A DNA stretch of 64,000 nucleotides from Isoetes taiwanensis (taxonomy: Eukaryota; Streptophyta; Lycopodiopsida; Isoetales; Isoetaceae): positions 434,001-498,000 of the forward strand of contig JAJEKV010000037.1 of NCBI GenBank assembly GCA_021234155.1, in the 5' to 3' direction. Numbering within the stretch: position 1 is the first letter of the stretch; every line of letters starts with the position of its first letter. Positions 2,940 through 64,000 of the stretch are shown here, one piece after another. Both the position numbers and the translations under genes were made by a program. The notes under the pieces are model-generated. The model was not told the origin of the DNA and ran no database searches. It saw only the letters and a program-made list of their open reading frames with translations.

Positions 2940-4573
2940 TCAAGAAGGAGGCAAGCTTCTAGAACTAGGGCTAGAAGCAAGGGCCTTAATCCGATCCATG
3001 GATCCAAAATCAACAGAGGGCAGCCGAGCTCTTCTGATAATTCTGTCCATATTTCTCTGCAAGCTCTGATTAACCATTCTGTTTACAATTTTTCGCTCTT
3101 CGCAGATCTCAGATTCGTCAGAAATCCGGCCGCTTTGTGAAGATCCGGTAGTAATTGGTGCAGAAATGGCCCTTCCTTTCTGCCTCTCTTCTCTCAAGCA
3201 TTCTAAAATCCTAGAAGCCCTTTTCTGTGCCAGAGTCGATCCTAAAAGCACCACCTCCAGCAGACTAGAAACTGCTCCTAATCTTATCAATGCTTGCCGG
3301 ATCGCCCAGCTATGGTGTGCCAGAATCATCAGCACATATACTGCTAATTCTTGGCTCTTGCTTCCGTTTTCCCATTCCAGAGCACCCACCAAAATTTCCA
3401 GAATTTCATTCCGCTCTGCCATTGATTTTCTTCCGGCTTCTGTCGCTGCCAGATTCCCTAAAACCGCCAGAGATTTTTCGCCCAGAGATGGGTCTTTTAT
3501 TAGATTTAATACCACCGGAATTGCCCCTGCTTCTGTGATGAATGATGCGTTTGTTGGGCAGATCGATAGATTGTAAATGGCTCTTAATGCATCTTTCTTG
3601 GCCTGAGACTGAAGATTTTTATTTTCCAGCATTGATTTTAGCAACGGAATTGCTCCGGATGATCCAATAATGGGTTTGTTGGCATCTAAAGCTGACAGGC
3701 TAAGAAGCGCTGCAGTGGCGGCTTCTTGGGTTGTCGAATCTTGAGAGATTTCCAGCAGATCGACTATTTTGGGAATTGCACCTGAGGCAGAAATTGCAGC
3801 CTTGTTTCTGCAGATTTATTGAGCAAATTGTTAGAAAGATTCGTCCAAACAATCTTTAAAATATTGTAGATTACTGTAAAGAATTTGCAAGGCGGAAGAA
3901 CATACATGTCGTTTCCGATGGCAAGATTGAGCAGGGCAAAGAGGGCCGAGTTCTGGAATGCCGGATTAGACAGATCTAACAAAGAAATTAGAAAAGGGAT
4001 TGCGCCCAGCATGGAAAGAGTTTCTCTTGCCCATGCATTATCTTTTGTAATATGTCTGATTTTTTCCGCAGATCTGCCCTGTTCTTCATCGCTTCCCCGC
4101 CGGAGTTGCTTCACCAAGCTTTGCAGCTCATCAAACAGCTTGCTCCTGGCTTCTAGATACTCTGTTTTTGCTATTAAATCTAATTTCTTGCTTGAATCCG
4201 AAACGCCCTGTAAAATTTCCTTGCTCTGATCACCTGGGTCTTTTTCGTTCTGCAAAACCGAGCAATCCCTGCCAGTTTTCTTTCCCTGATCATATGAGTT
4301 TTTGCCATCTCCGTGCTTATCCCTGCCGGACTTCTTGATTCCATCCTCTGCGCCAAGATTTTGCTCTTTTTCTACCGGAACAGCCTGTCCCCTGTTTCCC
4401 CTCTTTGGATCTAGCCTCTGTTTTTTCTTCAGCTCCTTCAGCGATGTAATGCTTCTCTTAGAAGCCGAAGATCTGCACCGAATCGCATCAAAAAAAGTCG
4501 AGAAAATGCCCGAAAAGCTTCTTGAATGAGAATGCGTTATAGCTCCGCCTGATTCCGAAGCAAAGTGGGGCAT
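2940..4573 (-). CDS. ARM-repeat superfamily protein (PUB-ARM-like, no U-box)
   Basis: Two exons: 4573-3906 and 3807-2940. The donor is GACAT|GTATG and the acceptor CTGCAG|AAAC, and joining keeps frame (1536 nt, 511 residues plus stop). The first ATG is at 4573, reading MPHFASESGG. Residues 1 to about 140 are low-complexity and basic/acidic, with no U-box or other domain. From about residue 150 there are successive armadillo repeats with typical text such as AIPFLISLL, ALFALLNLA, GAIPKIVDLL, AATAALLSLSALDANK, GAIPLLKSML, LRAIYNLS and KSLAVLGNLA. The C-terminus is basic and serine-rich, ending SRSLPPS. Plant relatives are annotated as ARM-repeat or U-box-like proteins and usually act as protein-interaction scaffolds; without the U-box, ubiquitin-ligase activity is not expected. 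The exon structure is intact with no frame damage, so this is probably a functional gene. Its specific partner cannot be inferred. Confidence 0.9.
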
Positions 4574-7042: not shown

Positions 7043-7160
7043 TGGGTGCAAGGCAATTGGGACCGCATTCCGGCGTGGATCGGTGGGGTCCCGCGACTGG
7101 CGTTAGCCGGGAGCGGGTCACCGGTCCCGCCGGAATGCGGGATCAATTGCCTTGCACCCA
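7043..7160. repeat. GC-rich foldback with ~32-bp arms
   Basis: The left arm beginning TGGGTGCAAGGCAATTG (7043) pairs with the right arm ending CAATTGCCTTGCACCCA (7160), with about two mismatches over 32 bp and a GC-rich centre. The sequence is far more GC-rich than its flanks, suggesting an inserted foldback element. Its right end abuts the TIR element that starts at 7160. Confidence 0.75.
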
Positions 7161-11497: not shown

Positions 11498-12960
11498 TTA
11501 TGAACTTGCAACAAACTTCTTTTCATTTCCCAAAAAGATATTACATCCTTGAGAGTCAAAATTGACTATATAGCCAAGATCTACTAACTGACTAACAGCA
11601 ATCAAGTTCTTAATTATGCTAGGTACACACAAAACATTTTCAATGTCAACTACATTTCCTTCTAAGTCTAATAACTGCAACAGTCCTCTTCCTTCAATGG
11701 TTTGCAATGCTCCATTCCCTACTTGCACACTCCTTGTATGATTCTTGGAAATTTTCTTGAGTAGATCCACATACCTCTTCCTCATCTTCAGTGCCTTCTT
11801 TTTCTTCTTGTTCATGTTCTTTTGCAATAAAAGCTCCTGCTAGTTTTCTTCCTCCTTTTCCCCTTGTATCTGTTTTTCTACTAGCATTGCTTTTCCCTTT
11901 ATAATCTCTTGGTGTTGGGCATTTAGCAGCCAAATGACCCCTGCCTCCACAATTGTAGCAATTGAATTCCCTTTTTAACTTTGGACAATTATTCTTTACA
12001 TGCCCTTCCTCATTGCAATTATAGCAAATTATTTTGGGAAAAACTACAATATACCCCTAACTTTTTGCAAAATTCACAACATACCCCTAACTTTTAGAAA
12101 ATTCATGAAATGCCCCTAACATATAGGTTTTTAGGGGCATTTTGTGAATTTTTAGGGGCATTTTGTAAATTTTTAGAAAGTTAGGGGTATACTGTGAATT
12201 TTGCAAAAAGTTAGGGGTATTTTGTAGTTTTCCCCAATTATTTTTCTTGCTGATCCTTTGCCCTTTTATCCAGCATACAGAATTTCTGCTCCTTCATCAT
12301 CATTGCCTTTAGCAACCTTTTTTTGTTCAACCTCAGTCCTCAAGATGCTCTCTGCCTCATCTCTATTTTTGGCCACATTCCTTATAAAGAGCCCCAATTG
12401 CGCATTTTCTATTACTGCTCTAGTTATGGTGAGCATTTGGAATCTTTCAGATAAATCAACCCTACCAGCAGCCACAATATTGTCAAATTTATTAAAGAAA
12501 TCAGACAAGTCATCCTCATCATGTAACTTTAAATTTCTTAGTTCTTTATCAAGCAGATCTATTTGAGAGGACGTCTTCTCCTCAAAATGCATCCACATTT
12601 CTCTTGGAGTCTTATTTCTCAATTTCAATCTTATAGTAGGACTTACCTTGGAAGTGATGATTCCTTGTGCCTCCTTCAGCCTTGCATATTCTGTTTTTGT
12701 CCCTTTGATACCTTCAGCAGATTCTGCTGAGTTTACTTCCCCTGAACTTTCAGATTCATTTGCACTTGTTCCTCCTCCAGATCTTGCTGCAGCACTAGCA
12801 TTGGACCTTATGCCATTACTGGATAAATTTTCTCCTAAGGGATTGACCAGATCCCAAAGTTCCTCTACTTCTAGAATGTGTATTGATGAGTCCTTCCAGA
12901 CTTGGAAACCAGGACCCCCTGTTGGGCGAATTCCCCATATCCACCCAGCATAAGGGGGGT
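11498..12960 (-). pseudogene. gag: Ty1/copia-type retrotransposon gag and protease-proximal fragment
   Basis: Read on the minus strand, 12.96 to 12.27 kb encodes a UBN2-type gag: ARLKEAQGIITSKVSP, PREMWMHFEEKTSSQ, DEDDLSDFFNKFDNIV. Next come two CCHC knuckles (CYNCNEEGHVKNNC and CYNCGGRGHLAAKC), then protease-region text (VQVGNGALQTIEGRG, NVLCVPSIIKNLIAVSQL) ending at 11498. The DSGAS catalytic motif expected before VQVGNG is not present in readable form. Integrase and reverse transcriptase are missing. A 200-bp inverted-repeat element splits the gene just before the first knuckle, and at least one frameshift lies near 11.8 kb. It is a dead copia remnant. Confidence 0.85.
12036..12235. mobile_element. 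200-bp inverted-repeat MITE with 9-bp target duplication
   Basis: The left end GGGAAAAACTACAATATACC and the inverted right end GGGGAAAACTACAAAATACC pair over about 42 bp with few mismatches, and the rest of the element is also largely self-complementary. AATTATTTT occurs on both sides (12027-12035 and 12236-12244). Removing the element and one copy restores a continuous gag frame running GSARKIICYNCNEEG. A 9-bp duplication is typical of Mutator-like elements; the superfamily is inferred from that length. Confidence 0.85.
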
Positions 12961-36556: not shown

Positions 36557-36664
36557 AAGGGGTTCACCTCCCCTGCGAGCCCATTGCGTCTGATAAATGG
36601 GCGAGCCCGGAGGGGCGAGCCCATTTATCTGGCATAATGGGAGAGCAGGGGAGGTGAACCCCTT
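36557..36664. repeat. Foldback element with 46-bp arms
   Basis: 36557-36602 (starting AAGGGGTTCACCTCCCCTGC) pairs with 36619-36664 with about six mismatches around a 16-base GC-rich centre. The arm also has internal repeats of GAGCCCATT. It resembles the small GC-rich foldback at 7043-7160 in size and layout but not in sequence. Confidence 0.8.
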
Positions 36665-45052: not shown

Positions 45053-45943
45053 TCTACTGCAGGAGACAGGATTCTTGCCTCTTCAGAGGGCGGCCCTTGA
45101 TCGCCACATTGTCTATTTTTAGAAGGTCGTCAATATGGACGATGCTCGTATCCCTAAACTAGCTTATATCATGACAATGGGGCGCGGCGCCTCAGCGCTT
45201 TCTTTGGAGGGAAAAAGAGAGCTCAATGGTTGGCTAGATGGAATATGCAGGAGCACAGGTGCATACATGTGCAAACAGAGGCAGATCGCCATAACTTGAG
45301 GCAATATCTTGACGCTTGCTTCCTCAGCAAGCTTTGGGATGCCAATGCCCTTGAACATGTCAAGACAGCACACTACCAGCGCCACATAAATCCCACATTG
45401 GAACGAGGTCCGCAATGCTACCTGCGTACCCACTTGCCCATGAAAAGGCGTGGACTCATTGCCTCCATTCGCACGAGGGCACATCATCTTGAATTGAGGC
45501 AGGCGGATGGATTGGTGAGCCACGCCCGGGGCAGATGTCATCAATCTTTGCCAAATGGGAGTCATTGAGGATGAATCTCATACCCTTCAAAGTTGCCCAG
45601 CATATGATCAAATTCGGACGCGCTATGCTGAGTTGGTCAGGCCTGGCCAGCCGTTACATGTGACATTGAGCACAGCATCCGTACGGGTGTTGGGATCATA
45701 CCTTCAGGAGGTTATAGACATGCGAGATCAGCTATGTCCTCGGGCACACACTTGACATGTATATATACATTGATGTATACTTGTACAATTTGTGACATTC
45801 TTATTCTTTGCCGCGTTTTTCCTTGAAAACCCTTGGTGGGGTTTTTTAACCCGGACAGTAATAAGTTTGCTGCGCTCCTTATGGGTCCCATAGGCCGATT
45901 GGCCTCAGTGGACGATAAAAAATCATTCTCATTCTCATTCTCT
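45053..45943 (+). mobile_element. 5'-truncated LINE copy inserted in the DUF7869-like gene
   Basis: Codes for RQYLDACFLSKLWD, QRHINPTLERGPQCYLRTHL, RRGLIASIRTRAHHLELRQAD and EDESHTLQSCPAYDQIRTRY, the C-terminal part of the LINE at 43.4-43.9 kb and better preserved there. It ends CCCATAGGCCGATTGGCC, GTGGACGATAAAAAATC, then (ATTCTC)n at about 45920-45943. Both flanks are pieces of one minus-strand gene, which defines the insertion limits to within about ten bases. Confidence 0.8.
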
Positions 45944-46930
45944 TGAGCTTGGTAGAGAAAGTTCCGAAGAATGCATCTATATCATCATGCGTATGCCCAA
46001 CCATCATGAACCCTACTTTCACAACCTTAAATACTCCCACTGCTATCAAGTATGACATTGCCCCAAACATCCATCTATTCTTATTTTTTTTTTCACAGTT
46101 GTCCAATTGAACACATAGCTCCTTTGGCAGTTGTTTCTCAAGTAAGAGGAAATCATCCCAAGTCCTCCTTGATTCTTTCGACACCTTGGATGTGAGCTCT
46201 TTTATCTGCCTTTGGTAACGGAGCGGTTGATCGTCCATCAAAGCCTCAAAAATGGGGGCTGATGGAGAATACCTCCTCCCTTCTATCGATCCTTTTCTCT
46301 AGTGTTCTCAAGCACTTGAAAATAGAACTCACATGGAATTTGGATCATCCCTCCATAGATCAAGCACAAAATGACCATAGGTTCCAGTTCCATGCCCATG
46401 TGCTAACACACCTGCCACTTACTTTCATCTGAAAAGCGTTTTGACAATGCTTGGGCAAAGGATCTAGCTTTGGCAAGAAAGTCTTGTGTTGGTCCATCTT
46501 ATCATGAATTAGACACAAAAATCTGTCAGGCTGCATCTGGGAAAATATTCTCCACTGCCAATACAACTGTCTACATGATATTTGGTCCCTTTGGTGATCT
46601 GCAAATTGCTCCCTAATTGCCATTCTTTCTTTCTCTATTGCAGTTGATACAAGTGTATCCTTCAGTTGAATCCAAGTGTTGCACTTTGAGAATGGCATGT
46701 GTTGCTCACGTCAGAGAAGTGAGTTCTCCATAACTTGCTGAAATGTGATTGAGAAAGAGGCCACCTCCAGTAGTTTCTAGGATGGAGTTGACCTCTTTAA
46801 GACACTCTTTCTGGATGTAATGTTGTGGCAACACCCTTTGGACCACTCACACACCGTTGGGGCATAGATTGAGACATGTATATCACAAAGCTCTCGAAGA
46901 CTGCAATGGCCTTCAAAGTGTTTGCTCTAG
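45944..46930 (-). pseudogene. N-terminal/central part of a DUF7869-like transposon protein
   Basis: Minus-strand blocks in order are SKCNTWIQLKDTLV, FLCLIHDKMDQHKTFLPKLD and GFMMVGHTHDDIDAFFGTFS. The DKMDQ-KT-P block and GHTHDDIDAFF are hallmarks of the DUF7869 family found in plant repeats and probably transposase-derived (my family recall, not a search). Upstream from 46930 to 46700, blocks such as LHPERVS and FSKLWRTHFSDV are readable with stops. The gene is dead: it has shifts and is split by a LINE. Confidence 0.65.
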
Positions 46931-49858: not shown

Positions 49859-50640
49859 CTAGGAAGCCCATAAAATGGCAATCATTCCTAGGATGGGTCC
49901 TAAGACACAAAGCTCCTTTTTAGCCTGAGAAATACGAAAGAAACCCTCCTGTGCATCAACTATGAAGCCTAAAAAGATTGTGCGGTGTGAGAGATGAAAA
50001 CGACACTTTTTCCATGCCAAGAGAAAACCGGCCTGCTGCAAGTCGGCAATGACGCGAATCTGGAGAGACTCAGGAAGGGACTGGCAAAGAAACAAAATAT
50101 CATCGACATAGGGCAAACAATGAATACCACGACCGCCAAAACCGAACTAAGCTGTCTAACTAATTTGGTAAAGACAAGGGGACAGGAAGCAAGACCAAAG
50201 GGGAGGACATTAAAGGCGTAAAAGCGACCTCGAAGCTCAAAACCCAAAAAGTGCGGTGAGGAGGCCAAATAGAGACATGGTGATAACCGGACTTAAGGTC
50301 GACCTGCAAAGAAAAATCATTAAGGCGCACATAAATGTGAAAGAAGCTCAAGAGACTCATATCGGAAGGAAGGGATTGTCAAGAAAGAGTTCAAACATCA
50401 TTAAGTCAAGGATAAAGGCGAAACTTGTTCATGCCTTTGGGGACAACACCCAAGGGGAGCAAAAGAAAGGGCAGGTGAGGACGTGGGACGCTGCACCCTA
50501 TCATAAAAGATCGGAAAGCAACGCCGGCGTGCAAAGTCCATGTGGGCAGACAAAGAAGAGTGATTTGGGGCGGAAAAAGCAACAGATGGACGAGAAGATG
50601 ACCAAGGAAGGCGATAACCAAACTGGATCCAATGCAAAAC
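49859..50640 (-). pseudogene. DIRS-like reverse transcriptase
   Basis: Ordered blocks on the minus strand are PLGVVPKGMNKFRL, then LQVDLKSGYHHVSI, LGFELRGRFYAFNVLPFGLA with VFTKLVRQL, PYVDDILFLCQSLPESLQIR and FLGFIVDAQEGFF. The catalytic YVDD is present. Frames change at about five points. Typical Ty3 text (LRSGYHQI, MPFGLTNAPATFQ) is absent; PFGLA-VFTKL is the DIRS form. RNase H and methylase domains, which DIRS polyproteins carry downstream, are not seen. Confidence 0.6.
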
Positions 50641-55772: not shown

Positions 55773-55800
55773 GGATTCTCGACTCGCGAGTCGAGAATCC
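55773..55800. repeat. Perfect 28-bp palindrome (family core CTCGACTCGCGAGTCGAG)
   Basis: GGATTCTCGACTCGCGAG begins a fully self-complementary 28-mer in the first intron of the ParB/methyltransferase-like gene. It is the longest perfect member of the family. It carries four CpGs and two GANTC sites. Confidence 0.9.
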
Positions 55801-55807
55801 CTCACCG

Positions 55808-55903
55808 AGACAGCACTCCAGAAAGTACACTCCATGTTCTCGCCTCGCAAGTCGAGAATTTTGCGAGGCGAGAACAGGGAGTGTACTTCCTGGAGTGCTG
55901 TCT
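55808..55903. repeat. 96-bp foldback built on a palindrome variant, 43-bp arms
   Basis: 55808-55850 (AGACAGCACTCC...CTCGCCTCGCAA) pairs with 55861-55903 with about two mismatches around a ten-base loop GTCGAGAATT. The variant palindrome 55837-55858 lies at the inner end. A half-site GCGAGTCGAGAA follows at 55908-55919. Transcribed, it would form a long near-perfect hairpin. Confidence 0.85.
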
Positions 55904-55943
55904 GGGTGCGAGTCGAGAATGCCTCAGACAGCCAACATGTCTT

Positions 55944-55965
55944 TTCTCGACCCGAGAGTCGAGAA
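55944..55965. repeat. Palindrome family member, variant centre
   Basis: TTCTCGACCCGAGAGTCGAG plus AA: outer arms conserved, centre altered from CTCGCGAG to CCCGAGAG. Same intron as the preceding copies. Confidence 0.85.
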
Positions 55966-55989
55966 TGCCATAGCCATCTAATGCTACTG

Positions 55990-56428
55990 TGTGCATTCTC
56001 CAGTGTATGGTCGCAGGTACCTCGATGTAGTCAGAGTCACTCTCCTTCGAACCATCTTCCTCGAATATTGCGAAGGGGAGGGGCTCGGATTGGGTGGCAG
56101 CCTCTGCGACTAACCACAGGGGAATGCATTTGAACTGCATCCCTAAGGCGCACTCGTTGCTTTCTCGACTCGCGAGTCCCTATGCGGAGACCTTACTCCA
56201 CATCCGCCTTGACCCGCCCAAGCTTTAGTGCATTCTCCTGTTTTGAGTCGCAGGTGCCTCTAGCCAGTCTGAGCCACTCTGCTTCGAACCATCTTCCTCG
56301 AATATTGCGAAGGGGAGGGGCTTGGACTGGGTGGAGGTCTCTGTGACTAACCACAGGGGAATGCATTTGAACTGCATCCCTAAGGAGCGCTGGGGGCTTT
56401 CTCGACTCGCAAGTCGAGAAGACCCTCG
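55990..56428. repeat. ~237-bp tandem duplication, each unit ending in a palindrome
   Basis: 55990-56190 and 56228-56428 share TGCATTCTCC, GAACCATCTTCCTCGAATAT, CACAGGGGAATGCATTTGAA and then the palindrome (truncated at 56162-56178, near-perfect at 56399-56420). On the minus strand each unit reads MQFKCIPLWLV, then PLPFAIFEEDGSK. The first has a good donor (GAG|GTACCTGCG) and the second has GC in place of GT. So an antisense exon and a palindrome were duplicated together. Confidence 0.8.
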
Positions 56429-56447
56429 ACCAACCAAGTTCAAACCT

Positions 56448-56830
56448 GGAGCTGTTCGCGAGTTAGTCCGATTTGTTCTTCCCTTGCTGAGCATCTCTCA
56501 ACCCAGAGATTATCTCGACGTTGAAATATGCTCAACAAGAAAACAATAAATCGGTCGAGCTTTCGACCAGTTCCATGATCTAAACAGGTCTAGCATGCCT
56601 AACAGAGACTCGGACTCGGTGGAGCCGTTTGCTTCTAAACACAAAGGACTGCATTCTAACCAAAACAGAGTACACATGGAGCTGTTCGCGAGTTACTTCC
56701 GATTGGTTGCTCCCTTGCTGAACATCTCTCAACTGAGAGAGTGTCTCGACGCCGAAATATGCTCAACAATGAAACAACCAATCGATCGAGCTCTCGAGCA
56801 GTTTCATGTTCTATACGGGTAGTGCATGCC
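56448..56830. repeat. ~230-bp-spaced duplication of a second antisense coding-like unit
   Basis: Units at about 56448-56600 and 56678-56830 share GGAGCTGTTCGCGAGTTA, TGCTGA(G/A)CATCTCTCAAC and ATATGCTCAACAA. On the minus strand the first unit reads RKLDRFIVFLLSIFQRRDN...REQLQ with a CAG|GTTTGA donor-like end. The second is partly shifted. They appear to be duplicated exons of the antisense gene at 56.0-57.3 kb. Confidence 0.65.
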
Positions 56831-56878
56831 TAACAAGCATTCTAATAAAATAATGAAACAAGCATCTCTGAAACTCAC

Positions 56879-57254
56879 CTCTTCTCGCAAGTACTCTTTA
56901 GGCCATTGTATCACAGATCCCGCAACCTCTCCGAGAGTCTTCGCTTCTTCTGTTGGCCTCATCAACAAGGCATCTGCATCAAAAACTTGACTTAAAGCGA
57001 TTCTTGTGTATCCCTTCTCCATGGCGCTGTAGTGAAGAGTGCCCGTGTCCTCCAGCTCATCTTCGGCTGCTACCTTTGCCCCATGCACATCGATCAGATC
57101 AACTAGTTTGAACAAGACACGTAGTTAGAACGAGACACAGATTAAACCGCTATTAGGAGCTTACATCGTCGTGGCACCATCCGGGAACTTCTTCAGAATC
57201 TCTCTCGGCCTCCGGCTGCGAAGACCCAATAAAACTATGCGCCCGATAATCTCC
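56879..57254 (-). pseudogene. Antisense exons resembling a plant transposon-associated (DUF8039-like) domain
   Basis: The minus-strand ATG at 57254 reads MEIIGRIVLLGLRSRRPREI up to a GAT|GTAAGC donor. After an intron and AAACTAG acceptor, exon 57102-56879 reads DVHGAKVAAEDELEDTGTLH, then LSQVFDADALLMRP, GEVAGSVIQWPKEYL and a GAG|GTGAGT donor. The pattern (DVHG-VA...H...V.V..VFD...LL.P......AG..IQWP) recalls domains found beside En/Spm-type plant transposases. It lies wholly within intron 1 of the plus-strand gene. Family assignment is tentative; the exon borders are good. Confidence 0.45.
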
Positions 57255-58299
57255 ATTGCGCTCAAACACTTAGTCCCTGGAAATGATCAATTTCGAATTA
57301 GTGTTTGGGCAGGCTAAAGTTGGCTGTGCTGTACCCTTAGCCTGCTTTTTTGCCTTGAATAATTGTATGTCCTTAATTTCAAATTTAAGAACACGCCGGT
57401 ACCTTTTTTTTTACGTACAGTCCCAAAATCTCAAAGACCCGGAAGAGACTCAGTTTAGAAGGGAATTCGAGCAGCAAGAGACAGCGCCGGCATTCTGACA
57501 TGACAACTCCAACGAAGAAGCGGGGCGTCGGAGCGGATGCCGGTTCTAGTGGAACGAAGAAAAGAAAGACCATGACGCCAGGTAAGCTCTCAATTCATCC
57601 ACCTTTTCTGATTCGATTCATCCACCTTTTCTGATTCATTTTTTTGTCTTGCAGCATTTACGGCAAAGACGCTAGTGATCACTGGTAGAACTCCATTCTT
57701 CGTTATTGAAGGATTGGAGACAGAGCTACTGGAAACACCTGCAGATTGCTGGTGGTATGTCGAAGTCACATCTTGTGGGAAGGAGAAAGGTCTGTTCCTT
57801 TGGCAGAGGGATAAAAAGAGTTCCGGCGACAAGTAATCACACCAAGAAATTATCTGTCTCCAATTATTCTTCCACTTCAATGAGCAAGGTCAAGGGGACT
57901 GACAAAAGGCCGGCGCCTTTAAATTTCTAGAACCTTGGCTGGAAGGATTTGGAAGGGATGAAAGAGGCCAGAACTCTCACATCAAGGGAGCTCGCAATGG
58001 AGATTTTCAGGGTGAGAGAGAGGCTTTTCAACACCGGGAACTTCACGTCCAACGTACTGAAGACATTAAAGTACTCTACAGTTACTAAGGATGTAGTTCA
58101 GAAAGAGAAAACTCCAGAGAGGACTTCAAGTGTGGAAGCAGAAAGTACTCAAGAGGATTCAGATGCAGATGAAGAGGATGAAATGGTTGATTCTCAATTC
58201 TTGGATCCATGTGACCAGATAAGAAAATCACAGAGAGGGGCCCAAAAGATGGAGCGGCTGGCTCAATATTATCAATTGGGAATTGGCCACAAGTTGTTG

Positions 58300-58706
58300 C
58301 TGGACATAAGACGGTTGAAGGTTTGCAGTGGCGATGCGGTCCTGTTCAACCACAGGGAATTTAATCCAACTCACATGCTAGAGATTCTGAACCTCATGGT
58401 GCATCATTCCGATTCTTGGATCAATGCCCGGCAGATGTCATAACATTGCCAGAGAGCACGGTGAGTTGTTCGGGGAGCACGGAGGAAGACACGAAGGGAA
58501 AAGATGTGAGGTTCTGGGTTGTGGACAGTCAGCATTCAGTGAGGTCAGCACAAGTATTGCAGACAGAAAAGGAAGTCCCGCAAAGGATCAAGGATAGATA
58601 TTCCAAACGAGAGTGCAGAGTTCTCTCAGCGGACATGCCACCAACATGAGCTTCGCAAAGATTAGCCCTTGTCGAATACAATAGCGATAAGTGCCGACTA
58701 CATAAG
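58300..58706 (+). pseudogene. ParB-like domain segment
   Basis: Text FNPTHMLEILNLMVHHSDSW is followed, after a one-base shift near 58435, by DVRFWVVDSQHSVRSAQVL and then KDRYSKRECRVLSAD and LVEYNSDKCRLHK up to a good donor (AAG|GTAATT). The block VVD-x-QHSVRSA corresponds to the VVDGQHRxxAA signature of ParB/sulfiredoxin-fold domains, with Gly replaced by Ser. ParB proteins bind CTP and palindromic parS DNA; related domains are nucleases. Whether this one binds nucleotide or DNA is unknown. The assignment is by motif recall, not a profile search. Confidence 0.5.
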
Positions 58707-58731
58707 GTAATTTCATCGTCCTGCTCGGCGG

Positions 58732-58864
58732 TTCTCGACTTCGGAAGTCGAGAAAGCCCCCTAATCCTCTGTTTTCTATTTTTCTCTAGGCTTTCTCAAC
58801 TCGTGAGTCAAGAAAAGCCAGAAAACAGAGGATTCGGGGGGTTTCTCGACTCGCAAGTCGAGAA
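58732..58864. repeat. 133-bp compound palindrome containing three family members
   Basis: Palindromes at 58732-58754, 58793-58814 and 58843-58864 are joined by spacers that are inverted copies of each other: CCCCCTAATCCTCTGTTTTC on the left against its complement near 58821-58841. The whole block is therefore one imperfect palindrome centred on the middle member (CTCAACTCGTGAGTCAAG, with CpG-to-TpG/CpA changes). It lies just downstream of the donor at 58706. Confidence 0.9.
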
Positions 58865-58874
58865 AGCCAGAGAA

Positions 58875-59816
58875 AGCCCATTTGCATTTTAAGCCCTACC
58901 CCAAGGCCAAATACTACTATCATTTTTCAAAATCTTTCCTATGGCACAAGTCACATTATGGTGTTGGAGTACACCTCAAAAACTCCAAAATATTATCTTT
59001 TTCAAATAGGTTTGGAGGGTCCGTTAAAACCCCCATTTTCTTAATAGGTTTGGTGGGACCCGTAAAACCCCCAGTTAGCTCTTTTTTGTGCCAAAGAAGA
59101 CTAACTTATTGTACTTAAATGTGAAAAGTGTTGAAGTCAGTGGCCGAGGGGACCGGCCACATCTTTTTGTTTGTGCGTGATGTTGACCCGATTTTTGGCA
59201 AAATCGGGGTCAACATAGAAGAACACTATCAAGGTCTAAAGGGGGGGTGAAGATCAAGGGTCCAGATTCATTTGTGCTTGTTGTTAGAATCCAAGGGCCC
59301 ATATTAAGTTGTGTTAGTTGTTAAACAAAAAGACAAATTTGGTTATGGAGAAGAAGAAGACAAAAAACAAAGGATTGATGAGGTGTAAAAAAGGAGTGCC
59401 AAGATCATGCCAAGTGGATGGCCAAGATTTGTTCAAAAAAAATATAAATATCTTGAGGGGACTTGTTCTCCTCCTCTTGGGCTCTAGAATCTCACATGGA
59501 GCAAGGGTAGTGGCAGCCCTGGGAAGATGGTGTCAGAGACCTCTTCCCCCATGCAAGATATCTTGAAGCATTGTTTTGTATTACCTTCTTGAATAAAGTG
59601 GTGCACCCTCTTTTTATCTTCTACATTTTTTCCATTTTTCCATATTTCTACATTTTCTTCCACACTTCCTTTATCAATTTTTCATTACCAAATTTTCGTC
59701 CTTTTTTTCCTTCAAAAAATTTTTCTTGGTTCTTGGTTCTTTTGCCTTGCAGCAGCACTATTTGATCCCATGTTTGTCTTTGAAGGTCGATGATGAGGAT
59801 GTGGGGAAATCCGTCA
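58875..59816. repeat. 942-bp direct repeat, copy 1
   Basis: Matches 60936-61870 at roughly 99 percent by eye. The visible differences are a few substitutions and a 7-bp deletion near 61077. Each copy contains a hairpin TGTTGACCCGATTTT/AAAATCGGGGTCAACA (59181-59216 here), a short ORF starting at 59318, and a T-rich acceptor with GCAG near 59752. The borders lack TG...CA ends and a matching target duplication, so LTRs are not proven; a partial tandem duplication fits as well. Confidence 0.9.
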
Positions 59817-60935
59817 TCATCATGGAGGTTCTACCGAGATCCTACTTCTCCCCGGGATCAGATTTTGGTGCTGCTGTTTCTTTTCTATATCATGTCTTCC
59901 ATACCTTAAATCCCGCTTTCTATTCTCTGCCATTCATACTCTGCTGCCAAGATCGACTGCTGCCAAGACTCTGCCAACCTGCAAGAAAACAAGGAAGAAG
60001 AGTTGTCCATCTCGGTTGCCTTCGCCTCAGAAGCTACCGGATTTGCCGAACAAATAACAGAAGGAAATACTTCTTGAATATTTTCGGGAGAGCCAGCAAA
60101 AAGCCAGCCCTCCATCTCATTCTACCCTTGATGATGGATTTGTTGACAAATCTCTGTTGCCTTCGCCTCAGAAGCTACCGGATTGGATTTTCCGAACAAA
60201 TAACAGAAGATTGAAGTTGCCTCTAATTGCTGTTGCCAAGATCTGTAAGCAAGAGATGAAGCAGGAAGGAGAGAAGAAAGAAAATAAGAAGTTCTTCTTT
60301 TGAAGATGGTGCGCAGACAAAGCAAGATATTTAGAAGAACAGCATAATTCGGACCTGCAAAGCCATTTCTCTGTCCGCCATAATTGCATGCATCTCACCT
60401 GCTCCATCGCCATACCTGCTATCAGACCCGCTGAAGAAAGAAAAGATGATGACCCTGCTGTCGCCATAGATGTGCCGAACCTGCGGAAGATTGAGGAGAA
60501 CGGGAGAGAAGAGGAGGTTAAGTTCAAGAAGAAAGAAGACGCCGCCATTTCGTCCACCGCTGCCATGGAAAGAAAGAATTTTGCCCTTTCTCTCAACTTT
60601 TTGCCACGTTACCTTTTTTCCCCTTTTAGCCATTGCTTTGCTTTTTTCTCCCACTTTGTTTTTTTCCACCTTTATTTATGACTACCTTTTTCTTAATCTT
60701 GCCACTTCGCCCACGTTCCTTTCTTTTTGCCCCATGCCATACATCATTTTCTTGCCATGTTATTTTATAGCCTCCCCACATCTTACTATTTCATTTGCCT
60801 CATAAGTACTTACCTATTGTGAAAACATTCATCAATTTTGCCTTATTACACACCTTGTTGGACACTTTGGCTAGCAACTTGACATTTTTTTGTTTGTGCG
60901 ACTCTATCTTACCATCCCCAATATCTTGATGACAT
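59817..60935. other. Segment between the direct repeats
   Basis: A plus frame continues from copy 1 (VDDEDVGKSVIIMEVLPRSYF...) to about 60214 and includes CLRLRSYRI twice, owing to an internal duplication (about 60012-60064 and 60157-60210). On the minus strand 60168-60669 holds overlapping frames with no known motif. I see neither primer-binding site nor polypurine tract next to the repeats. 60590-60900 is T/C-rich. Confidence 0.45.
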
Positions 60936-61870
60936 AGCCCATTTGCATTTTAAGCCCTACCCCAAGGCCAAATACTACTATCATTTTTCAAAATCTTTCC
61001 TATGGCACAAGTCACATTATGGTGTTGGAGTACACCTCAAAAACTCCAAAATATTATCTTTTTCAAATAGGTTTGGATTAAAACCCCCATTTTCTTAATA
61101 GGTTTGGTGGGACTCGTAAAACCCCCAGTTAGCTCTTTTTTGTGCCAAAGAAGACTAACTTATTGTACTTAAATGTGAAAAGTGTTGAAGTCAGTGGCCG
61201 AGGGGACCGGCCACATCTTTTTGTTTGTGCGTGATGTTGACCCGATTTTTGGCAAAATCGGGGTCAACATAGAAGAACACTATCAAGGTCTAAAGGGGGG
61301 GTGAAGATCAAGGGTCCAGATTCATTTGTGCTTGTTGTTAGAATCCAAGGGCCCATATTAAGTTGTGTTAGTTGTTAAACAAAAAGACAAATTTGGTTAT
61401 GGAGAAGAAGAAGACAAAAAACAAAGGATTGATGAGGTGTAAAAAAGGAGTGCCAAGATCATGCCAAGTGGATGGCCAAGATTTGTTCAAAAAAAATATA
61501 AATATCTTGAGGGGACTTGTTCTCCTCCTCTTGGGCTCTAGAATCTCACATGGAGCAAGGGTAGTGGCAGCCCTGGGAAGATGGTGTCAGAGACCTCTTC
61601 CCCCATGCAAGATATCTTGAAGCATTGTTTTGTATTACCTTCTTGAATAAAGTGGTGCACCCTCTTTTTATCTTCTACATCTTTTCCATTTTTCCATATT
61701 TCTACATTTTCTTCCACACTTCCTTTATCAATTTTTCATTACCAAATTTTCGTCCTTTTTTTCCTTCAAAAAATTTTTCTTGGTTCTTGGTTCTTTTGCC
61801 TTGCAGCAGCACTATTTGATCCCATGTTTGCCTTTGAAGGTCGATGATGAGGATGTGGGGAAATCCGTCA
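60936..61870. repeat. 935-bp direct repeat, copy 2
   Basis: Near-identical partner of 58875-59816. The high identity points to a recent event compared with the decay of the surrounding gene. After 61870 the sequence differs from that after 59816, defining the breakpoint at AATCCGTCA. Confidence 0.9.
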
Positions 61871-61902
61871 GCATATGACTGTTTTCTGTTTTCCTCTGAA
61901 TA

Positions 61903-61924
61903 TTCTCGACTCGCGAGTCGAGAA
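61903..61924. repeat. Perfect palindrome family member
   Basis: Complete 22-bp form with core CTCGACTCGCGAGTCGAG, preceded by CTGTTTTCTGTTTTCCTCTG, a phrase type seen before other members. It lies in the intron before the exon at 62164. Confidence 0.9.
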
Positions 61925-62031
61925 CGACTCTATATGGCTTCCTCTGTTTTCTCTTCTCTTGTGGGAGGCTCGATGCTTTTACTCATCAACCATTGATCTC
62001 TAATGAACCCTTTCATGTTTGTTTTCTGTTT

Positions 62032-62108
62032 TTCTCGCGAGTCGAGAAAGCCCCTGCATCCTCCTTTTTTTGTTGGCTTCTGGGTATTCTCGACTCGCGA
62101 GTCGAGAA
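62032..62108. repeat. Two palindrome family members, one deleted and one perfect
   Basis: 62032-62048 is TTCTCGCGAGTCGAGAA, lacking five central bases. 62087-62108 is the perfect 22-bp form. Both lie in the same intron, 55-75 bp before the acceptor at 62163. Confidence 0.9.
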
Positions 62109-62480
62109 ACCCTGTGGATGTACTCCTTCCATGCTCTGACATAGTTTCATTTATTGATTGCAGCCCGTATCCTGACCAGATCATACACGCTCGGCAACAG
62201 TGGAAAGCATTGGGTTGTCCTCAGCAGCCTAAAGGAAACAGGGCTCCCTCGGATAAGTGGAAAACCTTCGACAAACTCTGCATATATGTTCTTCTGGAAG
62301 GCCAGGAAGATGATGAGGGGGATGATGAAGATGAGAAAAAGAAAAAAAACACCAAGAAAGGGCAGGGAATCTCTATCTGACCAGTATAACCTCATTCTCT
62401 GCAGTGAGGTGGTCTAGGTAAAATAGACTGAGATATGGGCTCTCTGGACAAGAGGCAAGCTTAAGGATAGCAATGGAGAA

Positions 62481-63731
62481 TTGCAAACTAAGCTGGACCC
62501 AAAGTTGTTCGACAAGCAGTTCATGAAAAGGATACAGGGCCTGACGGACAAAGAAACGTTTGACCTACAGGGCAAAATCCTAGATGGGACAATCCTGCTA
62601 AGGAAAACTAGGAGTTCAAAAATGCAGGATGCAAAGGATTATGCCAGAATCCTAAAGAGATGGCGTGCACTGGAAGAAGGCATCACAGAGTTTTGCAATG
62701 TTGCATCCAATGCATGCCATGATTTTGATTATTATAAGGAGAAGACTGCGCTTGATGAGGATGACATGAAGGAGTTGAACTACATCAACACAAAGCTAAA
62801 GCGTAACGTCAAAACCGCCCCCTTTCCTGAACGATTTATGGCACTTCTGAAGCGAAAGCTTGGATTCGGGGTGGTCCCATTTAAGACAGACGATAGCTCC
62901 CCTTCCTTCTTGGTAACCTTGGGACACAAGGGGTTCGGTGGTCTGGAACTGGCGGCTGGGCCCGTGGCACTATTTGCCATGAATATGATTGAAGACCCTA
63001 CCCTATTTTATGAAAAAGCTGACATTGAGCAGTGGTACAAGACGTGTCTGGACATGACCGAGATGGATACTTTTAGTTTCCTTATCTTTTGCATGCCGGG
63101 CAATCAGGCAACTGCTGTGTTACAATGGGCAGCTGATATTAATTTCACCAACAAGATCTTGTATTCTATATACGAACTGGAACATGAGTGTAGACATGGC
63201 CTGCCGAAGGCACCAAGTTTTGCCAACATAGTTTTGGTTCTGGTTTCAAGGTCGGCTGCAGACCTGGACAAGTGGTGGTCAAGCGAGCACCACTATCTCG
63301 ATAAGTTCATGATTTCTCAAGAGCATATGGAACCCTGGAAGGGCGGCAGATTTATGGAGGATGTGCCATCGATTGACAAAGTCAGTACTGATGGTGCGAC
63401 AGGTCCAATACATAGAATTCCTATCCGTCCAAGAGTTATCAAGTACTTCATAACCAGCTTGGTCGAGGGAGATCAAATTGTATGCGAGTGGTATATGAAT
63501 GGCCTATTGTCTCAGGGGGTTATGCTCTATGGAATGAAACCAATATCTGTGGTTGGGAACAAGGACATGGTTGAGACCATTCGGTCATACTTGGACTTGC
63601 TTCATGAGCATTTTCAAGAGAGGAAGACAGCTGAAAGTAGTAAGGACGAAGATGACAGAGAAAAAGCTGTCAGCCAGGGAGATAAAAATGACGGAGATGT
63701 CCAAGGTTTAGACGAGCTTGAAGCGGAATAA
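62481..63731 (+). CDS. 416-codon open stretch: N6-adenine-methyltransferase-like domain with degenerate motifs
   Basis: The open frame continues upstream (EIWALWTRGKLKDSNGEL from about 62432) behind two in-frame TAGs, and ends at TAA 63729. The second half has the layout of beta-class DNA methyltransferases. EDPTLFYEKADIEQWYKTC sits where DPPY and the next helix belong. FSFLIFCMPGNQATAVLQW and IVLVLVSRS look like central strands. IPIRPRVIKYFITSLVEGDQ, then IVCEWYMNG and KPISVVGNKDMVETI, sit where the motif X/I segment (VLDxFxGxG) belongs. Key residues (DPPY, FxGxG) are replaced, so catalysis is doubtful and a binding role is possible. The C-terminus is acidic. Length without damage suggests recent decay or selection on this exon. 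Confidence 0.5.
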   Translation: MQTKLDPKLFDKQFMKRIQGLTDKETFDLQGKILDGTILLRKTRSSKMQDAKDYARILKRWRALEEGITEFCNVASNACHDFDYYKEKTALDEDDMKELNYINTKLKRNVKTAPFPERFMALLKRKLGFGVVPFKTDDSSPSFLVTLGHKGFGGLELAAGPVALFAMNMIEDPTLFYEKADIEQWYKTCLDMTEMDTFSFLIFCMPGNQATAVLQWAADINFTNKILYSIYELEHECRHGLPKAPSFANIVLVLVSRSAADLDKWWSSEHHYLDKFMISQEHMEPWKGGRFMEDVPSIDKVSTDGATGPIHRIPIRPRVIKYFITSLVEGDQIVCEWYMNGLLSQGVMLYGMKPISVVGNKDMVETIRSYLDLLHEHFQERKTAESSKDEDDREKAVSQGDKNDGDVQGLDELEAE

Positions 63732-63773
63732 ATAATGGAAAATCTGAGATTGAGGTTAGTTCACTTTGCTTTT

Positions 63774-63809
63774 GGAGGGTTTCTCGACTCGCGAGTCAAG
63801 ATACCCTCC
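63774..63809. repeat. Palindrome family member with extended arms
   Basis: Core TTCTCGACTCGCGAGTCAAG (63781-63800) with extra flanking complementarity GGAGGGT/ACCCTCC. It begins about 20 bases downstream of the donor at 63754. Confidence 0.85.
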
Positions 63810-63828
63810 TAGTCTTTAACTTTTTCCT

Positions 63829-63850
63829 TTCTCGACTCGTGAGTCGAGAA
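63829..63850. repeat. Palindrome family member, one CpG changed
   Basis: CTCGACTCGTGAGTCGAG with matching TT/AA ends. With the preceding member it occupies much of a 131-bp intron (63755-63885). Confidence 0.9.
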
Positions 63851-64000
63851 TCTCGTTTCGTAACTGACGGCTTTCATCATTCCAGGGACATCGAGCGCAA
63901 CCAATCTGGATCATTGTCGCAATTACAGGGGTCTGCTGGCGGTTTAATTCAACAGGAGGATACTGCATCCAAAAAAGGCAGTCCAGAACAAGATAGTGCG

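Follow-up and report, generated by a model that had tools for sequence, protein, structure and literature searches.

Palindromic minisatellites are a known kind of repeat. Small inverted triplications are described from yeast and from cancer genomes; they reportedly originate from misalignment of a 3′ flap at palindromic sequence, and their three segments average 148, 160 and 148 bp (PMC13334657). In Arabidopsis VANDAL transposons, the introns carry clusters of motifs to which VANC proteins bind; VANC21 binding is stronger in the introns, intergenic stretches and noncoding ends of its transposon, and the VANC21 motifs have multiplied through the formation of tandem repeats (PMC5735166). The subterminal repeats of CACTA elements are bound by TNPA-like proteins, and in soybean Tgmt* 24 such repeats constitute 12 palindromes within 732 bp, or one per 61 bp by our division (PMC2613891).

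The palindromes considered here lie in the last part of a 64,000-nucleotide stretch of Isoetes taiwanensis DNA (the window), at a locus that looks like a decaying plant gene. The 22-nt palindrome TTCTCGACTCGCGAGTCGAGAA has 14 sites between 55776 and 63850, 11 of them full-length and three partial, which are grouped in three arrays (A, B and C). An ungapped scan with the 22-mer gives three exact copies, and cumulative totals of six at up to one mismatch, nine at up to two, 10 at up to three, 11 at up to four, 12 at up to five and 13 at up to seven; the copy at 58732, whose 3-nt loop makes it invisible to such a scan, was included by eye and from a profile, and the ungapped frames of the partial sites start at 55898, 56162 and 62027. 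The original prediction of a cluster of about fourteen palindromes thus holds, all 14 sites falling within about 8 kb, and each of the 13 positions that it named does carry a copy, variant or half-site; it had, however, credited four copies with the whole 18-bp core, where the actual number is three. That no copies occur elsewhere in the window was also correct, as judged by a mismatch scan and a profile search of the 64 kb: bases 1–54999 contain no site at up to seven mismatches and five at eight, and outside 55.7–63.9 kb the best profile scores (E=0.67 for a 32-bp palindrome profile, E=0.64 for a palindrome-plus-spacer profile) amount to no match.

A chance origin was ruled out by simulation, as 60 first-order Markov simulations of the window produced nothing at up to four mismatches (and means of 0.97 at up to seven and 5.6 at up to eight). 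It is hardly credible that the family is an unrelated coincidence or an artefact of assembly: the palindromes are dense and some fall within nested duplications, a setting in which assembly from short reads can go wrong, but the copies have scattered point changes and differing flanks, and the simulations speak against coincidence. The exact 22-mer is absent from IMG/VR viral contigs and GTDB prokaryote contigs (in searches that may have excluded records of the genome to which the window belongs). A looser pattern was matched in a single viral contig, L001, where the surroundings of the hairpin look unrelated by eye, and we take this to be chance. Four strings of the palindrome were not found in the literature searched, and among the matches listed (for searches including TCTCGCGAGA in plants, CACTA, VANC, palindromic minisatellites and mobile palindromic elements) no paper describes such a family in its title or the start of its abstract. 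No tRNA genes were found in the window.

Array B occupies a plus-strand intron (58707–62164, with a GT donor and an AG acceptor identified by eye). Its first palindrome (58732–58754, 23 nt, with 10-bp arms around the 3-nt loop) begins 25 nt past the presumed exon end at 58706, and is followed by the 38-nt spacer B1 (58755–58792, plus by definition), a second palindrome with three mismatches, all of them CpG transitions (58793–58814), spacer B2 (58815–58842, minus), which is an inverted copy of B1 with a deletion (25 of 27 aligned positions identical), and a third palindrome with one mismatch (58843–58864). The array is then interrupted by a 3-kb LTR-like insertion (58875–61874, its ends set by alignment) comprising two direct repeats of about 940 bp (58875–59820 and 60936–61874) that are 98.8% identical. 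When the flanks of the insertion are joined they form a 38-nt spacer, B3, homologous to B1, although the homology is confined to the right 28 nt, which score the same on their own, and the length of B3 hinges on the insertion ends chosen. Beyond it lie an exact palindrome (61903–61924), spacer B4 (61925–61952, plus), a partial palindrome (62034–62048; five mismatches in the ungapped frame 62027–62048), spacer B6 (62049–62086, plus) and another exact palindrome (62087–62108). With the insertion left out, the spacings are 61, 50, 60, 124 (2 × 62) and 60 bp. The sequence itself shows that the insertion came later than the array. The spacing of about 61 bp, the inverted spacers and the splitting of one array by the LTR-like insertion are matters on which the earlier reading of this DNA was silent.

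Local alignment to B1 gave 0 of 2000 shuffles for B2 in inverted orientation, and likewise for B4 and the joined B3 in direct orientation, and B5, also direct, gave p=0.025 with the same number. Global alignments gave 0 of 300 shuffles for all six pairs among B1, B2, B3 and B6; B6 is identical to B1 at 26 of 35 positions, although its local p is 0.08, and B4 did less well globally (p 0.093 against B1, 0.53 against B6). The homology of the array B spacers argues for local duplication. The explanation that we prefer, with our confidence about evenly balanced, is that the three short arrays arose by local amplification of a tandem repeat that carries the palindrome, in noncoding parts of a single degenerate locus. 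The repeat unit, of about 60–61 bp, would consist of the 22-bp palindrome and a spacer of about 38 bp; growth would have been local and at the level of DNA, through tandem slippage or unequal exchange, and the inverted spacers would have come from fold-back (template-switch) synthesis at a palindrome, or from recombination between two palindromes. Tandem Repeats Finder reported no array at the palindrome positions.

Array A begins with an exact 22-mer (55776–55797) inside a 28-bp perfect palindrome (55773–55800), and continues with the 39-nt spacer A1 (55798–55836, plus by definition) and a palindrome with two mismatches (55837–55858) that sits midway along a self-inverted stretch (55803–55908, 87% identical). 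Spacer A2 (55859–55907, minus) is an inverted copy of A1, identical at 30 of 33 positions in the part compared (55875–55907; 0 of 2000 local shuffles). After the right half of a palindrome (55908–55919; seven mismatches in the ungapped frame 55898–55919) come spacer A3 (55920–55943, plus), possibly a shortened direct copy of A1 but weakly so (p 0.027 global, 0.09 local), and a palindrome with two mismatches (55944–55965). A truncated palindrome (56162–56178) then terminates the first copy (55991–56178) of a 188-nt direct duplication, the second copy of which (56228–56415, 87%) ends inside a palindrome with one mismatch (56399–56420). Array C lies in a 132-nt plus-strand intron (63755–63886, GT…AG by eye) and has two palindromes, one with two mismatches (63781–63802), which with its flanks makes a 36-bp imperfect palindrome (63774–63809, 89%), and one with a single mismatch (63829–63850). 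The figure of 61 bp is not general, since array A has spacings of 46, 218 and 237 bp besides two of 61 bp, and that of array C is 48 bp.

Arrays A and B both open with spacers in the order plus, minus, plus (the third weak in A), as would be expected from fold-back synthesis or palindrome recombination, and it looks as if this order is the signature of a small inverted triplication made by fold-back copying. The centre of the inverted repeat in array B is, by our arithmetic, 5 bp from the middle of the palindrome at 58793, and coincides with it once B2 is credited with the 10 nt that it lacks. In array A, the A-to-C change at position 7 of the palindrome at 55837 is found in both long arms of the hairpin, as if one had served as the template for the other. 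If amplification is all that happened, the locus would show clearly how a palindrome can drive a repeat to grow locally within a plant intron, and the direct-inverted-direct order of the spacers would survive in one array and probably in another.

Amplification alone does not explain, however, why the palindrome occurs in three arrays with mostly unrelated spacers. Exact 22-mers are found in both A and B, and yet homology to B1 is absent from A1, A2 and A3 (local p 0.80, 0.44 and 0.71); A4 gives a borderline result (0.059 local, 0.003 global), though as the best of 48 cross-scores, and homology of the array C spacer to B1 is not clear (global p 0.037, local 0.70). A neutral repeat should moreover lose a CpG-rich palindrome before its spacer, and between the arrays the opposite is seen. 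Such identical 22-mers within largely unrelated flanks could be those of a tiny mobile palindromic element, inserted repeatedly in the manner of organellar palindromic elements or very short MITEs, as the original prediction had suggested among other roles. We think this unlikely, because there are no convincing target-site duplications (the best flanking direct repeats for the 11 copies are 4, 0, 0, 0, 0, 0, 0, 3, 3, 0 and 3 nt, and repeats of at least 4 nt occur at 14% of random places), and the homologous spacers of array B and the local clustering, with none in bases 1–55700, weaken it further. An element with copy-specific inverted flanks was also considered and dropped, as in the 11 copies a left flank does not pair significantly better with its own right flank than with one from another copy (p 0.07 for 8 nt, 0.20 for 12 nt and 0.5–0.7 for 16–40 nt).

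The changes within the palindromes are mostly of the CpG type, in agreement with the original prediction. In the seven variant 22-nt full copies (a count that leaves out the three exact copies, the 23-nt copy at 58732 and the three partial sites), eight of 12 substitutions are CpG transitions, an excess with a binomial p of 1.5e-5 if all substitutions are equally likely and of 0.002 with transitions making up two-thirds of changes. On the amplification reading, the DNA would have become methylated after the arrays had grown, and the CpG sites would then have started to decay. The same substitutions bear on a suggestion that the palindromes are intronic RNA hairpins, perhaps small-RNA precursors or splicing or processing structures, selected for base pairing. 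Several copies are predicted to fold stably as RNA (–51.0 kcal/mol for an 82-nt stretch around 55837, a value without a shuffled control), but none of the 12 substitutions is matched by a compensatory change on the opposite arm, and in the copy at 58793 a G-to-A change in each arm has broken the pairing. These observations disfavour selected hairpins, as does an Rfam search of the window, which gave no match at gathering thresholds, and we infer that an RNA role is very improbable.

What the three arrays have in common is the palindrome (mean pairwise identity 90%, lowest 77%, among 11 copies) and not the spacer, and we therefore retain, tentatively and with some doubt, the possibility that they are cis-acting arrays of binding sites of a transposon-like gene unit, in which a symmetric (dimeric) protein, perhaps from the same gene family, would bind the palindrome in introns and upstream DNA. 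Such a reading is compatible with amplification, and would imply a transposon-like gene that marks itself through a CpG-rich target. It is in keeping with the binding of VANC21 to motifs in noncoding transposon DNA, multiplied there as tandem repeats (PMC5735166), and with the dense palindromes of Tgmt* (PMC2613891). In this decayed locus the sites are outside the exons that can be read by eye, but that four clusters should all be outside exons is, in our own estimate, weak evidence. The inverted duplication 58732–58864 tells against binding, as the outer palindromes differ at their centres while the spacers have remained nearly identical. Among the CACTR/YAGTG strings listed from 53 kb on, in a window that ends at 64000, no pair with matching flanks emerged that would establish the ends of a transposon.

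The original prediction had put all copies between the exons of one gene, and this stands for the eight sites from 58732 to 63850 (with splice sites placed by eye); for the six sites of 55776–56420, which make up array A, it is doubtful, as the first recognisable exon is over 1 kb further on and they are 3′ of a minus-strand coding-like stretch. The gene was presumed to be ParB/methyltransferase-like, a label that finds no backing in a Pfam or NCBIfam match above cut-off among the pieces of the locus scanned (which also counts against the binding-site reading), or in two PDB searches, although scans of selected pieces of a broken locus could let a distant or damaged ParB domain escape. The 434-aa exon frame had no match in viral contigs and none in PDB at E up to 1, and AlphaFold2, run on the single sequence, gave a model too poor to use (mean pLDDT 38.6, pTM 0.27). 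The minus-strand pieces (56807–57279), which may resemble CACTA-associated domains, had no Pfam match in the selected frames scanned. Elsewhere in the window, the frame 2943–3815 matches the plant U-box ARM-repeat family PF25598 (35.9 bits against a cut-off of 33), a match that by itself makes a land-plant source likely. By analogy with VANC and VANDAL, it is conceivable, though improbable, that the palindromes are recognition sites for a protein of the same degenerate transposon-like family, as a palindrome-based counterpart of VANC/VANDAL anti-silencing. The CpG-rich symmetric motif of 22–32 bp would then have become numerous in introns and upstream DNA, enabling the element to mark or de-silence its own copies, in a system that would have arisen independently in another plant lineage.

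Returning to amplification as the preferred explanation, comparison with the systems described at the outset brings out both likenesses and differences. The arrays may be likened to palindromic minisatellites in that array B has a near-constant unit length and homologous spacers, with direct homology to B1 in B3, B4 (locally), B6 (globally) and, weakly, B5; they differ in that some spacers, such as B2 and A2, are inverted, and in the silence of Tandem Repeats Finder. The CACTA repeats keep to 159 bp and 732 bp at the ends of the element, whereas two of the three arrays here are intronic and neither ends nor a transposase could be made out, but the right border of Tgmt* similarly has a short motif whose inverted copies form closely set palindromes, at about one per 61 bp (PMC2613891). 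With the VANC arrays is shared a short motif, clustered in introns or noncoding DNA and multiplied with neighbouring sequence as repeats; the VANC21 motif is 9 bp (YAGTATTAY), and words beginning 'palindrom' are absent from the main text of that report (PMC5735166). Finally, small inverted triplications likewise have a short segment in direct-inverted-direct order with palindromic sequence at the junction (PMC13334657); the segment there is of about 150 nt, whereas here it is decayed and of about 38 nt, and here the palindrome itself recurs at every junction.

The palindrome TTCTCGACTCGCGAGTCGAGAA, a 22-mer identical to its own reverse complement, forms a cluster that is real and well beyond chance. 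Copies were counted by an ungapped scan of all 64,000 bases, which found the exact 22-mer three times (at 55776, 61903 and 62087; the original prediction had the entire 18-bp core kept in four) and, as mismatches were allowed, six sites with up to one, nine with up to two, ten with three, 11 with four, 12 with five and 13 with seven, every one of them confined to 55.7–63.9 kb. The copy at 58732 has a 3-nt loop that makes it invisible to ungapped matching and was recovered by a profile search; the site total is 14 (11 full-length and three partial). In bases 1–54,999 the same scan found no site with seven or fewer mismatches and five with up to eight (simulation of the whole window gave 5.6 on average); sites with four or fewer mismatches never arose in the 60 first-order Markov simulations. 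Flanks such as GGGCT...AGCCC lengthen the palindrome in several copies, and among 11 copies own flanks did not pair significantly better than swapped ones (p 0.07 at 8 nt). The exact 22-mer did not turn up in the viral and prokaryote collections searched (IMG/VR and GTDB contigs), which has little bearing on a plant. A 22-nt hairpin in a metagenomic viral contig (L001:3800–3821) shares the palindrome's 9-nt arms; its flanks look unrelated by eye, and we take the likeness to be chance.

Where a dispersed palindrome family in the introns of one gene had been proposed, the family stands, and the reading is now of a degenerate locus with three repeat arrays that carry the palindrome and are in part inverted: array A (six sites, 55776–56420), array B (six sites, 58732–62108) and array C (two sites, 63781–63850). 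Eight sites (58732–63850) lie inside two intron-like stretches with GT/AG ends and splice sites placed by eye (58707–62164, holding array B, and 63755–63886, holding array C). The six sites of array A precede the first recognisable exon (ATG at 57500) and lie 3' of a coding-like stretch on the minus strand (57279–56877), so that an intronic position is supported for eight of the 14 sites at best. In-frame stops and frame changes break the frames of the plus-strand locus. When selected frames (2 + 5 + 5 + 2 pieces) were scanned against Pfam and NCBIfam, no piece of this region reached the cut-offs, so that the label ParB/methyltransferase is a tentative one that found no family support. The weak matches below cut-off were to Peptidase_C93 (E 0.033), RXT2_N (0.025), DUF6371 (0.014), DUF5888 (0.072), GapR (0.046), Fn_bind (0.051), NCBIfam AtcC (0.053) and Voldacs (0.074), and to DUF7135 (E 0.00047, below its cut-off) in a charge-rich piece of 68 aa. 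A possible resemblance of the minus-strand stretch to CACTA-associated domains found no Pfam support in the pieces scanned.

Elsewhere in the window, a frame at 2943–3815 has a plant U-box ARM-repeat match, which points to a land plant, a DUF7869 match on the minus strand (45882–46298; 94.6 bits, cut-off 26) is perhaps a transposon-like gene remnant, and weak reverse-transcriptase matches in two frames of 49862–50292 (minus strand; E 0.00015 and 0.02, both below cut-off) probably mark a decayed retroelement. Self-inverted units of other sequence, MITE-like hairpins of 88–204 nt and 78–80% identity, occur at 2078–2165, 7043–7160, 12034–12237 and 36557–36664; two more self-inverted units, decayed and each with a direct duplicate nearby, lie at 56447–56575 (73%) and 56229–56365 (70%). 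Across the window, short tandem duplications of two to three copies are numerous (38 TRF rows, some overlapping), which suggests that the genome readily acquires small tandem duplications.

Array B appears originally to have been one array, now split by a 3-kb LTR-like element (58875–61874) whose two repeats, each about 940 bp long, share 98.8% identity. This element contains none of the 14 sites; its inner ends are TGATGACA... and ...GTCATCATCA, the same letters being missing from its outer ends, and no target duplication was seen by eye. Joining its flanks gives B3 (spacers are numbered along each array), 38 nt long with the insertion ends placed, as here, at the alignment ends, on which its length depends. 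B3 is homologous to B1 (25/37; 0/300 shuffles globally, 0/2000 locally), and its right 28 nt by themselves reach an equal local score. With the insertion removed, the palindromes of array B are spaced at 61, 50, 60, 124 and 60 bp. Those of array A are spaced at 61 and 61 (at 55776, 55837 and frame 55898), then 46, 218 and 237 bp, and the array includes a 188-nt direct duplication, both copies of which end inside palindromes; the two of array C are 48 bp apart.

Spacers were compared locally in both orientations (2000 shuffles) and by global alignment (300 shuffles), with A1 and B1 taken as + by definition. Against B1, B2 matches in reverse (local score 37 vs 8 forward), B3 and B4 forward (each 0/2000 locally) and B5 forward but weakly (local p=0.025), while B6, also forward, is not significant locally (p 0.08) and the array C spacer has no local match (p 0.70). 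Globally, all six pairs among B1, B2, B3 and B6 gave 0/300 shuffles; B4 gave p 0.093, 0.017, 0.080 and 0.53 against these four in turn, and the array C spacer 0.037 against B1, 0.017 against B2 and 0.17–0.34 against the others. A2 matches A1 in reverse (local score 51 vs 11 forward) and A3 matches it weakly forward (p 0.09 local, 0.027 global). For A1, A2 and A3 no homology to B1 was seen (p 0.80, 0.44, 0.71); A4 is borderline (0.059 local; 0.003 global with 3000 shuffles), and 0.4% of the places sampled in the window score as high globally, but it is the best of 48 cross-scores, uncorrected. By these orientations array B begins +, -, +, and array A probably likewise. The inverted-repeat centre in array B lies 5 bp off the middle of palindrome 58793, and coincides with that middle once the 10 nt missing from B2 are taken into account. 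Palindrome 55837 has an A-to-C change in both long hairpin arms, which suggests that in array A the change came first and one arm then served as template for the other.

This direct-inverted-direct order, together with the way array B is spaced, indicates local growth at the DNA level, and local amplification is the best-supported mechanism, to which we give an even chance. The arrays would have grown by slippage or unequal exchange, along with recombination at the palindrome or fold-back synthesis there; yeast and cancer genomes are described as having small inverted triplications that arise from misalignment of a 3' flap with palindromic sequence (PMC13334657). The want of convincing target-site duplications (the best being 4 nt, at one of 11 copies) counts against an ordinary mobile element. 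Selection for an RNA hairpin is likewise argued against, since none of 12 substitutions in the seven variant 22-nt full copies has a compensating change on the other arm; a search of the window against Rfam at gathering thresholds gave no match. Eight of these substitutions are CpG transitions and four are others (the count covers these seven copies and takes the consensus as ancestral; the exact copies, the one of 23 nt and the partial sites are left out), an excess (binomial p=1.5e-5 with all substitutions equally likely, 0.002 with transitions making up two thirds of changes) that fits methylated DNA.

Local growth leaves unexplained the identical exact 22-mer in arrays with mostly unrelated spacers: either the palindrome alone was transferred or homogenised, or it was kept by selection while the spacers drifted. 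Arrays of putative protein-binding sites are accordingly worth weighing as a serious alternative, compatible with local amplification, though on balance we think it rather unlikely. In the inverted duplication at 58732–58864, however, the outer palindromes differ at their centres and the spacers are 25/27 identical, so that there the palindrome is no better preserved than its spacers, which speaks against selection. Comparable motif arrays are known from two kinds of transposon: VANDAL elements have VANC motif arrays in introns and other noncoding DNA (PMC5735166), and CACTA elements have palindromic subterminal repeats, with 12 palindromes in 732 bp (PMC2613891), or by our division one per 61 bp, a likeness to the spacing of about 61 bp found here that may be coincidence.
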